Assembly: GCA_020199995.1 (NCBI GenBank)
Contig: JAIVJM010000031.1
Coordinates: 1-48,824 of the forward strand
Source: Acidobacteriota bacterium
GTDB lineage: Bacteria > Acidobacteriota > Blastocatellia > Pyrinomonadales > Pyrinomonadaceae
Length of the DNA: 48,824 nucleotides
Direction: 5' to 3'
Under the pieces are notes generated by a model. It saw only the letters and a list, made by a program, of their open reading frames with translations, made no database searches and was not told the DNA's origin. Shown here in pieces: positions 1,522-47,225 of the stretch. The translations under genes were made by a program, and so were the position numbers. Positions within the stretch are counted from its first letter, which is position 1; the number at the start of each line of letters is the position of its first letter.

Positions 1522-1615
1522 AGTCCGAGGCGCGAAGAAAAAAGTAAGGCCCGAGGCTCAGAGTAAGACCGCGCGGGTCGGACTCTGAGCTTCGGGCCTT
1601 GGGCTTTGTGCTTTC
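1522..1615. repeat. Heptad-type inverted repeat 1 (rodZ/guaB spacer)
   Basis: Arms 1546-1564 and 1582-1600 pair at 18 of 19 positions around a 17-base loop. The right half reads as 7-base steps of the type GCTTCGG, GCCTTGG, GCTTTGT. It fills most of the spacer between the rodZ stop and the guaB start, which lie on the same strand. Confidence 0.8.
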
Positions 1616-1617
1616 AT

Positions 1618-2396
1618 TTATTGCGCGTACTGCTTGTAGTTGTCTCTGGTGATGACCAGTTCCTGCGAGACGCCGGGCCGCGTGTCGGAGGGGACTTTGA
1701 GACTGACGCCGTTGACGGTGACGCCGAAAGCCCCGGTCATGCTCCGCGCGTAATTCAAGGTCAGCTTCTGCTGCGGCGTGAACTCGCGCGTCTGTCCCGC
1801 GGGCCAGACCACGCCCGGCTTGTCCTTGCCCGTCTCGTCATTTGCGCCGCCGGTTGCGAAGGGGCCGCCGCCCCTGCTCCGCCCGCGACGGGGCTCGCCG
1901 TGGGCGTGGGCGTCGCGCCCTCCGCCGGGCTCTCCGTGCGGCGGTAGTAGTGAAGCCCCGCGTAGACGATGAGGATCAGGATACCGACGATGACGGCGCT
2001 TAAGGCCGCCGTGATCAAGGGCGAGCGCGACGGGTCGCCCGTGTAAATGCGCGAGCGTTGCGGGGTGGTCGCCACTTCGTCGCTGTACTCGCCGAGCGAG
2101 CGGGCGGTGCGCTCGTAGAGTTCGAGCGCACGCCCCTCGTCGAAGCGGACGTGGCGCGCGTAAGCCTTGATAAAAGATTTGTTGAAGATGCCGCCGGGCA
2201 GGTGCTTGTAGTCGTCCGACTCGATGGCTTCGAGGTGGCGCATCGTGATGCGCGTCTGCTCGGAGATTTCGCGGAGCGTGACGCCGCGGGCCTCGCGCGC
2301 GCGTCGCAACTGTTCGCCAAGAGAGCCATCCGCCGCTCCGGCTCGCGTGCCGCCGCCGCCGCCGTCGGGACTCTGGTCAGAGGTTTTAGGGTTCAC
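1618..2396 (-). pseudogene. rodZ: RodZ-like cytoskeletal protein, reading frame broken
   Basis: RodZ links the MreB cytoskeleton to the membrane in rod-shaped cells. The first frame encodes an N-terminal Cro/C1-type HTH (SLGEQLRRAREARG through the NKSFIKAYA helix), a basic linker and one membrane segment (ITAALSAVIVGILILIVYA), then a Pro/Thr/Ala-rich linker. That frame runs on as nonsense to 1761. The expected DUF4115-like C-terminal beta domain (FTPQQKLTLNYARS, GAFGVTVNG) is encoded in a different frame ending at 1618. The switch lies near 1820-1870. The first strands of the domain seem to be missing, so this looks like a deletion rather than a single indel. The start is taken as GTG 2396, downstream of a strong promoter at 2516-2545. 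The ATG at 2549 lies upstream of that promoter and is unlikely. It may be a true lesion or an assembly fault. Confidence 0.7.
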
Positions 2397-2515
2397 GTGG
2401 CGTGTGTCTTCGCTAACTTTCGGCCCCCGGTCGGAACGTCGGGCGGCCCGGCGCGCAATTCTTCGGACTGAAACGGCTTCGGCCCGGACGCGCCCCGCCT
2501 CGCGTCTTAAGCCAC

Positions 2516-2545
2516 AATATAATGTGGCCCCGTGAGGCGTGTCAA
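2516..2545 (-). promoter_or_regulatory. Sigma70-type promoter for rodZ (and guaB)
   Basis: Read on the minus strand: TTGACA (2545-2540), an 18-base spacer, then TATATT (2521-2516). The -35 box is consensus. Transcription would start near 2509, about 110 bases before the GTG chosen for rodZ. Confidence 0.7.
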
Positions 2546-2575
2546 ACATTGCCCGCTCAGAAGGATGCGCGTCTC

Positions 2576-2604
2576 TTGAACTTTGCCGCGCGCGGTGCTA
2601 CGGT
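2576..2604 (+). promoter_or_regulatory. Candidate promoter of the microcompartment operon
   Basis: TTGAAC (2576-2581), a 17-base spacer and TACGGT (2599-2604) lie 70 bases before the first shell gene. The match is moderate. It is nearly back to back with the rodZ promoter. Confidence 0.4.
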
Positions 2605-2673
2605 TGGCGCATACCCGGACGCACTGGATCAGTTTTTAACTTCTACAACTAGAAAAGCGAGGACTTTAAGAAG

Positions 2674-45775: not shown

Positions 45776-45780
45776 AGAAA

Positions 45781-45871
45781 AGCTTTCAGCTCTTAGCTTT
45801 CAGCTCTTAGCTTTGGGCGGAAAAGCGGTTTTGTTCCGGCTAACTGCTAATAGCTAACAGCTAAGAGCTTA
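45781..45871. repeat. Heptad inverted repeat 16 (crotonase/crotonase spacer)
   Basis: AGCTTTC/AGCTCTT units. Arms 45788-45811 and 45846-45869 pair at 21 of 24 positions. It runs from 5 bases beyond one start codon to the other gene's stop codon (45869-45871), so the spacer is almost entirely repeat. Confidence 0.9.
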
Positions 45872-46711
45872 TTTTCCTTTGAATTCCGGTTTGCGTTTCT
45901 CGACGTAGGCCGCCATCCCCTCGCGCGCGTCTTCGGACTGGAAGAGCTGCTGCTGGAGTTCGCGTTCGAGCGCGAGGGCTGACTCGAAGGGAATCTCCGC
46001 GCCGGTCTGGACGCTGCGCTTAATGCGACCGACGGCGCGCGAAGCCTTATGTGGCGGGGTGAACTGCCGCGCGTAATCGAGCACCTGCGTCATGAAGGCG
46101 TCGTTCGTCTCGGCGTCGTAGATGTGGTTGACGAGGCCGAGCGCGTGCGCGCGCTCGAAGTCGAACAGCTCGCCCGTCGCCATCAGCTCGATGGCGCTCG
46201 ACTTCCCCGTGACGCGGACGAGTCGCTGCGTGCCGCCCGTGCCGGGCAGCACGCCTAAGGACACTTCGGGGAGCCCCATCTTGCCCGCGTTGCGGCGGGC
46301 TATCCGAATGTCGGCGGCGAGCGCGACTTCGAGCCCGCCGCCGACGCAGTGTCCGTTGACGGCGGCAATGACGAGCTTCGGCGTCTGCTCAAGACGCGAG
46401 AGCGTCTCGTTGGCGTGGAGGCAGAAATAGTACTTGAACTCGGGCGTGACGCTCGTGAGCATCGAGATGTTCGCCCCCGCGCAGAAGAATTTCTCGCCCC
46501 GACCCGTGATGACGATGACGTGCACGCGCTCGTCCATGCGCGCGGCGAGGACGGCGCGGTCAAGCTCCTGCATCATCTCGTAAGAGTAAGTGTTGGCCGG
46601 CGGGTCGTTGAGCGTGAGGAGCGCGACGCCCTCGCGCACGCTGTATTGAACGAGCCCGCCCGTCTCCCCCTGCCCGCCCGTCTGGTTAACTTTAGATTCG
46701 GCTTCCGCCAT
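45869..46711 (-). CDS. Enoyl-CoA hydratase
   Basis: The product has 280 residues and a classical crotonase active site. FCAGANISML and VNGHCVGGGLEVALAADIRI form the oxyanion hole. The first catalytic Glu is in MGLPEVSLGVLPGTGGTQRL and the second in KSSAIELMATGE. A short polar N-terminal extension (AEAESKVNQTGGQG) precedes the domain. It is the first gene of the minus-strand catabolic array and the only one of the three crotonases with both hydratase glutamates, so it is the best candidate for the beta-oxidation hydratase step. Confidence 0.93.
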   Translation of the reverse strand: MAEAESKVNQTGGQGETGGLVQYSVREGVALLTLNDPPANTYSYEMMQELDRAVLAARMDERVHVIVITGRGEKFFCAGANISMLTSVTPEFKYYFCLHANETLSRLEQTPKLVIAAVNGHCVGGGLEVALAADIRIARRNAGKMGLPEVSLGVLPGTGGTQRLVRVTGKSSAIELMATGELFDFERAHALGLVNHIYDAETNDAFMTQVLDYARQFTPPHKASRAVGRIKRSVQTGAEIPFESALALERELQQQLFQSEDAREGMAAYVEKRKPEFKGK

Positions 46712-47020
46712 TTAGTGGCTTACTCCTTCGGCGATAACTGATGACCGAGTTGTTCGCTTCCGACTCCGACTCGGAGACGGGGATAAGCTCGTGATGCCCT
46801 CTGATCGGCTCTCGAATAATTGTGGGATTGGTCTAGCCTTAGTCCGGCACAATGATGGGGCTCGCACGCTGAATGAGTCAAGAGAGGAGAGGACTCTTCT
46901 CTGGCCGCCCGGCCCCGACACTCCGGCAGCCGACTCCGCTTGACAGACGGCGTGCGCGCAACTTAGGTTCTCAATTATCACCCTCTGTAGTTTCTCCGTG
47001 TCACCCTTTTCGAGACGCAC
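46712..47020. other. Spacer between the catabolic operon and the tRNA-Sec gene
   Basis: 309 bases without a gene. It should contain divergent promoters. A plus-strand candidate for the tRNA is at 46940-46969. No convincing minus-strand promoter for the operon was found. A minus-strand ORF here runs antisense through the tRNA and is not a gene. Confidence 0.5.
46940..46969 (+). promoter_or_regulatory. Candidate promoter for tRNA-Sec
   Basis: TTGACA (46940-46945), a consensus -35 box, is followed after 18 bases by TAGGTT (46964-46969), a weak -10 box. It lies about 50 bases before the tRNA. Confidence 0.5.
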
Positions 47021-47119
47021 GGAGGCGCATCCGTTCTGGTGAACGGCGCGGTCTTCAAAACCGTCAGCGAGCCTGTGAGAGCAGGCTTGGGTGGGTTCGA
47101 TTCCCACACGCCTCCGCCA
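47021..47119 (+). tRNA. selC: Selenocysteine tRNA (anticodon UCA)
   Basis: A 99-base tRNA. The acceptor stem is GGAGGCG (47021-47027) with CGCCTCC (47109-47115), then G and an encoded CCA (47117-47119). The D stem has 6 bp (CCGTTC/GAACGG) with a 4-base loop, a hallmark of tRNA-Sec. The anticodon loop CTTCAAA (47053-47059) carries TCA at 47055-47057. There is a long variable arm (GAGCCTG paired with CAGGCTT) and a T arm GTGGG/CCCAC (47091-47107). Bacterial tRNA-Sec usually has an 8-bp acceptor stem; here the eighth position is a C-A mismatch. Its presence implies that the organism inserts selenocysteine at UGA. No selA, selB, selD or selenoprotein gene is seen in the window. Confidence 0.95.
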
Positions 47120-47125
47120 TAAAAA

Positions 47126-47225
47126 AGCTGTGAGCAGTTAGCTTTTAGCTTTCAGCTAATACGAAAGACCCGCCTCTGACACCGTCTCTGTCTGGCTAAC
47201 AGTTAACAGCTAACAGCTAAGAGCT
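47126..47225. repeat. Heptad inverted repeat 17 (tRNA-Sec/dprA spacer)
   Basis: AGCTGTG, AGCAGTT, AGCTTTT, AGCTTTC units on the left; TAACAGT, TAACAGC units on the right. Arms 47126-47157 and 47194-47225 pair at about 24 of 32 positions. It begins 7 bases after the tRNA and ends 4 bases before the dprA start. Confidence 0.8.

Follow-up and report, generated by a model that had tools for sequence, protein, structure and literature searches.

The window analysed here, 48,824 nt of contig JAIVJM010000031.1 from an Acidobacteriota bacterium (GenBank assembly GCA_020199995.1; Pyrinomonadaceae), carries hairpins in its intergenic spacers whose arms are short tandem arrays of 7-base units (heptads), each array built on a recurring word. 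The period of seven, the position, the polarity of the words, the dialect of words, the mirrored arms, some shared ends and loops, and the differing hairpins found at one junction are all observed. These hairpins are probably dispersed palindromes similar to repetitive extragenic palindromes (REPs), with heptad arms and with word families that spread as copies, settle behind stop codons and are replaced over time.

Period-7 arrays in the intergenic spacers

The window is one contig of a 5.32-Mb draft genome in 352 contigs (88% complete). It contains 17 segments with autocorrelation at lag 7, compared with 0.2 in Markov shuffles (mean of 5), and nine at lag 14, and all remaining lags from 4 to 21 give at most two segments each. 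Lag-7 segments (score of at least 8) were observed in 17 of the 32 window spacers of at least 40 nt. Those at 17693 and 22333 are GC-rich runs of a different type, and the 15 spacers left, together with the hairpin at 30818 and the 8-base site at 39571, give 17 sites (Table 1), a number that agrees with the roughly seventeen listed in an earlier reading of the sequence, hereafter the original prediction. The repeat tools and the lag script agree on the arrays located in that reading, including the perfect 36-bp arm at 26164-26245, and its single 8-base unit was found at 39576-39603. Its description of two complementary arms holds for most sites, but no partner arm was found for the array at 38022, and the repeats at 1546 and 30818 are hardly heptad.

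The own-genome sample comprises 511,079 bp (9.6%), namely the window and stretches of contigs 1-40, with 97.7 kb of spacers and 413 kb of coding DNA. Its spacers contain 94 lag-7 segments, with 55, 18 and 3 segments at lags 14, 21 and 28, and at most three at each lag between 4 and 30 that is not a multiple of 7. The coding DNA, four times longer, contains 13 lag-7 segments. Hairpins of score at least 18 number 78 in spacers and 2 in coding DNA. In shuffled spacers (at least 40 nt, 10 rounds) neither a lag-7 segment nor a hairpin of that score was found. The original prediction would have been refuted by a frequency in spacers no higher than in shuffled controls, and in this sample it is far higher.

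In relatives, 80 loci (1.32 Mb) were collected through likeness to the dprA protein, whose relatives belong to Pyrinomonadaceae, Blastocatellia and other Acidobacteriota genomes, nearly all of them metagenome assemblies. This protein likeness suggests a host in or near the Pyrinomonadaceae. The 80 loci contain 184 segments at lag 7 and 120 at lag 14, and no other lag from 4 to 15 gives more than 11. Such segments are dense in the nearest relatives and sparse or absent in many others. Among 20 stretches from relatives, too short to correlate hairpins with gene families, 11 have a lag-7 segment.

Words, dialects and polarity

According to the original prediction, each site has a word of its own. 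This did not hold up, since 68 of the 71 sampled heptad hairpins of the own genome fall into 10 word clusters and three are single (by single linkage, which joins GTGATRA with GTNAATC). AGTRAGC is present at two window sites (5524 and 44099), AGCTNNN-type words at four (5115, 43625, 45781 and 47138), and AGTAAGCAGTNAGCAGT has 92 + 64 matches in the genome compared with 0 for its reversed control.

Arm sharing, position, mismatches and mirrored arms were examined in 167 heptad hairpins, 71 from the own genome and 96 from relatives' loci of at least 6 kb. Within genomes having at least three hairpins, words are common to 43 of 287 pairs (500 permutations: mean 18.9, maximum 33), the own genome with its 312 of 2775 pairs being kept out of this test. 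Between genomes, the 5' arms share words in 484 of 11,099 pairs, compared with 105-133 when the word letters are permuted (five rounds); this is about four times the permuted level, and some of the vocabulary is thus shared across the family. When one hairpin of each pair is turned, so that a 5' arm is compared with a 3' arm, sharing drops to 30 of 11,099 pairs. A search of 147 genomes of the class for GTTTTCAGTTTTCAG...CTGAAAACTGAAAAC (W...W') gave 218 placements per strand in 12 genomes, a count that includes overlapping placements and of which 124 are in genome G014. The turned form of the same word, W'...W, is absent from all 147. The 5' arms are also poor in C (G 0.288, C 0.139), with G exceeding C in 146 of the 167 hairpins and C exceeding G in 14. 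The words are partial genome dialects with a fixed polarity. A fixed foreign set of words was considered and rejected because the GC content of the arms tracks that of the genome (r=0.73, 22 genome groups), lying below it in all 22 groups by 0.05 to 0.29.

Different hairpins at the same junction

The gene run at 39711-46711 is conserved in relatives. Heptad hairpins were called at 45775|45869 in 12 of 24 loci, at 43619|43698 in 8 of 12, at 44090|44201 in 6 of 12, at 44986|44987 in 4 of 16, at 42107|42807 in 7 of 9 and at 40850|40932 in 2 of 5, and at 42107|42127 and 42810|42807 in none of four loci each. These are automatic, conservative calls in which the window is one of each total and L041 and L076, two loci of one genome (JAFAZX), count separately. 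Hairpin calling is ungapped and as a result degenerate hairpins are missed, as in L036, L037 and L055 at 45775|45869, where heptads are visible by eye; a few of the calls made in relatives, those in L046, L049 and L067, look doubtful. The words at 45775|45869 include AGCTNTT, GTTTCAA, GTGACAA, GTGAACC, GTGACAG, GCTGGGT, AGCAATC and GTAAATC. Same-site pairs from different genomes share words in 15 of 131 cases, and different-site pairs in 36 of 539 between genomes and 11 of 46 within one genome (L032-L034 and L041-L076 pairs left out). In several relatives only 0-10 nt separate the genes at the same junctions and there is no hairpin, so that the hairpins look like additions there.

The replacement can be followed between L032 and L034, which are 94.5-95.9% identical in their five longest blast blocks (91% when a global alignment is forced across a replaced region). 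Between conserved flanks, a GTTTCAA hairpin in one corresponds to a GTGACGA hairpin in the other, the latter carrying a GTNAATC hairpin within its loop, and at a second junction a GGATTGC hairpin corresponds to a CGATGAACG hairpin. At the remaining junctions the word is kept and the units have changed. The orthologous spacers and this pair of genomes bear out the view of the original prediction that it is the word that changes, with period, arm design and position maintained.

Three further observations concern these loci. A gene region has been replaced between L032 (11050-12350) and L034 (11150-12760), which are otherwise syntenic, and another region differs by an insertion that is not a hairpin. 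JAFAZX has two copies of the dprA region (L041 and L076) with different spacer words, which suggests that the hairpins of the two duplicates have diverged. Long non-heptad hairpins are present at the junction orthologous to 45775|45869, of the TTTGGAGTGCGGCG... type in L049 and L062 and of another type in L101; the junction thus appears to accept several hairpin families.

Dispersed copies and mirrored arms

An end-anchored pattern retrieved 28 copies in G014. These share the ends AGAGCAG...CTGCTCT by construction of the search pattern, and the same ends are also found in copies retrieved by the inner word alone. G014 therefore shows terminal inverted repeats common to copies, a trait of miniature inverted-repeat transposable elements, and the proposal in the original prediction that the copies are not homologous elements is not supported. 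Of 15 parsed G014 copies, 11 have four heptads per arm and four have other numbers. In G136, seven copies have one loop type in common. Across the 167 hairpins, three 6-mers are enriched at the outer ends, AGCAGT (33, shuffles 1.9), AAAAGC (30, shuffles 3.2) and AGCCGT (29, shuffles 0.6), of which AGCAGT, and AGCCGT in part, come from the words. Of 61 own hairpins, 21 contain the loop motif AAGA(C)NGG (shuffled 1.5); among those from relatives, 8 of 69 contain it (shuffled 1.7). A second inverted repeat lies inside 6 of 65 loops of at least 30 nt (shuffles: mean 0.21, maximum 2). Nesting as a rule was rejected, a clear second heptad word being present only at L034 16054.

The two arms of a hairpin mirror each other unit by unit. 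At varying heptad positions, the in-register agreement of arms of at least 21 nt is 0.853; permuting the units of one arm and taking the best register gives 0.703, and a shift of one or two units out of register gives ~0.54. In 11 G014 copies, four deviating heptads are mirrored and nine are confined to one arm; when arms are permuted among copies, a mean of 0.64 is mirrored (P=0.0005). The mirrored variants indicate that the arms are made alike within copies, or are copied from each other.

Position behind stop codons

Genes were called with a small codon-usage caller, and start codons are approximate while stops are more reliable. In 133 co-directional cases the hairpin has its median start 3 nt past the stop (quartiles -2 and 8) and its median end 15 nt ahead of the next called start. 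It lies nearer the stop in 105 of the 124 hairpins with free space, and in 32 of 39 where at least 50 nt are free. In the own genome, heptad hairpins are present at 59 of 295 co-directional, 9 of 45 convergent and 3 of 50 divergent junctions; the corresponding counts are 42/143, 6/18 and 5/22 in L031-L041, and 32/687, 8/99 and 3/117 in L042-L110. Hairpins are clearly scarce at divergent junctions of the own genome, and less markedly so in L031-L041.

A role as intrinsic terminators was rejected, since a T tract follows the hairpin in 17 of 133 cases on the sense strand versus 29 of 133 on the antisense strand. Sense-strand G-T mismatches are no commoner than A-C mismatches (70 vs 59, p=0.38; 129 transition mismatches, of modest power), and RNA pairing is thus not an evident cause of the likeness of the arms. 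Selection on RNA pairing was rejected for this absence of a wobble excess.

Search for a mobilizing agent

The search for an agent was limited to the Y1 family, to which the REP-associated tyrosine transposases (RAYTs) belong. Y1_Tnp matches were found in 34 of 40 relatives, with three in the own genome, and were not found in the other six, G005 and G009 among them. G005 has 10 placements of one word. At the compared spacer, a stretch of G009 (L112) has the same sequence as L033, in which four heptad hairpins are present. G005 and G009 are drafts (89 and 91% complete), in which the absence of a match is no proof; at this level of completeness, at least two carriers do without a Y1/RAYT transposase. 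Across 30 Y1 loci (92 kb) only two heptad hairpins were called, one of them dubious. In a count limited to the 15 commonest 5-mers and 6-mers of the hairpin outer ends, neither GTAG nor CGTC appears.

Comparison with known repeats

The short tandemly repeated heptamers (STRRs) of cyanobacteria are tandem repeats of period 7. The 7-nt tandem units over-represented in the spacers here resemble these and the heptameric long simple sequence repeats (LSSRs). REPINs, hairpins made of two REPs, are described in the literature as RAYT-dependent; their units are REPs, whereas the units here are heptads. The two inverted units and the loop of a REPIN have been described as spreading as one mobile unit (PMC3116915). 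Heptameric LSSRs have been reported as intergenic and phyletically scattered, with indels in 7-nt steps between close strains (PMC4679880), and period 7 as the commonest long simple repeat in many bacteria, for which slippage has been proposed (Mrazek 2007 as cited in PMC4679880). In Beggiatoaceae, most TAACTGA repeats lie a short way ahead of a start codon, and a single indirect repeat was reported for the 169 sets of the Maribeggiatoa genome (PMC4679880). Heptameric repeats of all these kinds are mainly direct arrays, in contrast to the paired inverted arms described here.

The paired-arm form, which the original prediction took to be undescribed, is already in print for GGGAATC in Xanthomonas (PMC4692102). 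That study counted 70 and 75 pairs of convergently oriented arrays. These are mostly intergenic, rare in divergent spacers, at a mean of 28 nt from the upstream open reading frame (ORF) and 160 nt from the downstream one, and not at the same genes in the two species. They were reported in complete genomes, and Nostoc is said there to have few paired repeats of the studied word. Paired inverted heptads of one word are therefore known, and the hairpins here are like them in being inverted convergent array pairs nearer the upstream ORF. The single G-rich Xanthomonas word was read as a quadruplex former (GGGANTN; PMC4692102), whereas the clade words GTNAATC, AGTRAGC and GTTTTCA are, judged by their letters, without G tracts. 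The multi-word dialect, the polarity test, the mirrored arms, the shared ends and loops and the orthologous word replacement are not part of the Xanthomonas account as excerpted (PMC4692102).

REPs of the GTAG and CGTC families have been described as dispersed palindromes between convergent or co-directional ORFs, near the 3' end of the upstream ORF, with several families per genome, units of 20-40 bp and an unpaired GTAG or CGTC tag, the GTAG type being tied to RAYT genes (PMC3733652). The heptad hairpins resemble them as dispersed short extragenic palindromes close behind stops. They differ in their heptad arms, tandem-word polarity and word replacement, which do not belong to the REP definition in the excerpted text (PMC3733652). 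Among the matches listed from the open-licence literature, with subscription papers outside the search, none was recognised as describing multi-word heptad palindromes, dialects, polarity or orthologous word replacement. New here are the word change at orthologous junctions, the dialects, the polarity, the mirrored arms, the copies with shared ends and loops, and the median distance of 3 nt from the stop.

Origin of the hairpins

Based on these observations, we favor the reading of the hairpins as REP-like palindromes that spread as copies. The element would be mostly ~60-110 bp long, with each arm a short tandem heptad array of constant polarity, the 5' arm carrying the word and the 3' arm its complement. 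Several word families per genome would spread from spacer to spacer, by transposition or by ectopic copying through a putative agent, and land just behind stops, where the hairpin may be harmless or mildly useful at the mRNA 3' end, as proposed for REPs. Within a copy, palindrome-templated repair or gene conversion could keep the arms alike while the heptad number drifts. Over time, whole hairpins would be lost, gained or replaced, leaving different words at the same junction across species. Several points weigh against this reading. Arms need not match, as the unequal heptad numbers in four of the 15 parsed G014 copies show, and two of the four mirrored cases share the variant TTTACAG, which copying may have passed on, possibly in one event. 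In the own genome the loops vary, and a strict end-anchored pattern for the commonest word finds only three copies; the case for shared ends there is the 6-mer enrichment, to which the word itself contributes. The loop motif, clear in the own genome, is less pronounced in relatives. Finally, same-site pairs share words slightly oftener than different-site pairs, which points to some vertical inheritance.

An active copying process had been part of the original prediction, and the dialects, mirrored arms and dispersed copies support it. Its purely local form, in which slippage builds the array at each site, a template switch copies one arm into the other and nothing moves, is unlikely. The proposed slippage at period 7, the mirroring of the arms and the varying heptad numbers between copies would all fit, but the shared vocabulary, the dialects and the loops and ends common to the G014 and G136 copies would not, and local template switching should yield both polarities, so that the fixed polarity counts against it. 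It is more doubtful still that the hairpins are maintained by selection for protecting or ending mRNA, with many sequences sufficing and words turning over freely. Such selection would account for the siting just past stops, the few hairpins in divergent spacers and the non-heptad hairpins at the same junction in L049, L062 and L101, and REPs have a similar placement and similar proposed roles at mRNA 3' ends (PMC3733652, PMC12306157). The lack of a G-T excess (of modest power), the lack of a sense T tract and the relatives that manage with 0-10 nt at the same junctions argue the other way, and the period, dialect and polarity are left unexplained by selection alone.

The REP-like size, palindromic form, spread of copies and 3'-end siting, together with the Y1_Tnp matches in most relatives, might suggest classical REP or REPIN elements moved by RAYT. 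With two draft-genome carriers lacking such a match, hardly any heptad hairpins at the Y1 loci and GTAG outside the commonest outer 5-mers, we consider this very improbable. An assembly artefact, which the original prediction had named as a way in which it could fail, would be in keeping with all named loci but one being metagenome assemblies and with the only named isolate, Pyrinomonas K22 (L064), lacking lag-7 segments over the 21 kb of its locus. The presence of the feature in many independent assemblies, at orthologous junctions whose flanks are conserved, and the paired heptads in complete Xanthomonas genomes (PMC4692102), make an artefact barely credible.

Beyond the REP-like reading, we suggest tentatively that the hairpins could form a distinct, RAYT-independent class of mobile palindrome, in which a genome-specific word is laid in both arms with fixed polarity and is later overwritten at the same stop. 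This might proceed by one templated synthesis on both 3' ends of a break, or through a word-reading agent. If so, the same kind of agent may be behind the Xanthomonas paired heptads and the heptad arrays of other phyla. Scattered bacteria have been known for decades to carry heptad repeats, for which no mechanism has won acceptance. The many parallel words, dialects, polarity, swaps and a multi-copy element with clear ends make slippage, transposition and RNA selection separable by comparison or experiment.

Sites in the window and other repeats

Table 1. Heptad and related repeat sites in the window
Position	Feature	Word or unit	Remarks
1546..1600	inverted repeat, weak member	AAGGCCCGAGGCTCAGAGT	arms hardly heptad; lag-7 fraction 0.50; repeat tools
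3097..3171	heptad hairpin	GTGATRA	fills co-directional spacer
5115..5176	heptad array	AGCTNNN	co-directional spacer; arms paired only in part
5524..5606	heptad hairpin	AGTRAGC	
11941..12038	heptad hairpin	GGAGTCC	divergent spacer
18249..18333	heptad hairpin	GTRAATC	convergent spacer
23532..23593	heptad hairpin	GGATTGC	
26164..26245	heptad hairpin	AAGTCAG, CGCTGAA, CTGAA	perfect 36-bp arms from several words
30818..30898	inverted repeat	degenerate heptads	lag-7 fraction 0.44; overlaps doubtful gene call
32791..32885	heptad hairpin	GTGAACC/GTGACGG	
38022..38047	heptad array	CGGCTGA	partner arm looked for, none found
39571..39692	hairpin with 8-base unit	AGAGCCAC	unit array itself 39576-39603
40851..40931	heptad array	GGTTCAA	fills spacer; degenerate partner arm, no hairpin call
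43625..43703	heptad hairpin	AGCTNNN	other words in orthologous spacers
44099..44202	heptad hairpin	AGTRAGC	other words in orthologous spacers
45781..45869	heptad hairpin	AGCTNTT	other words in orthologous spacers
47138..47226	paired heptad arrays	TTAGCTT / GCTAACA	upstream of dprA; divergent spacer

Repeats of other kinds are also present. In the own genome, spacers carry another hairpin family, not heptad, that is built on AGCCCC...GGGGCGAAAGA, with sites at L141 2505-2725, L142 1938-2010 and 11520-11581, and L139 7868-8052. Inside called genes of the window, a degenerate 28-base tandem unit lies at 17517-17597 and a perfect 9-base tandem unit at 6535-6571.

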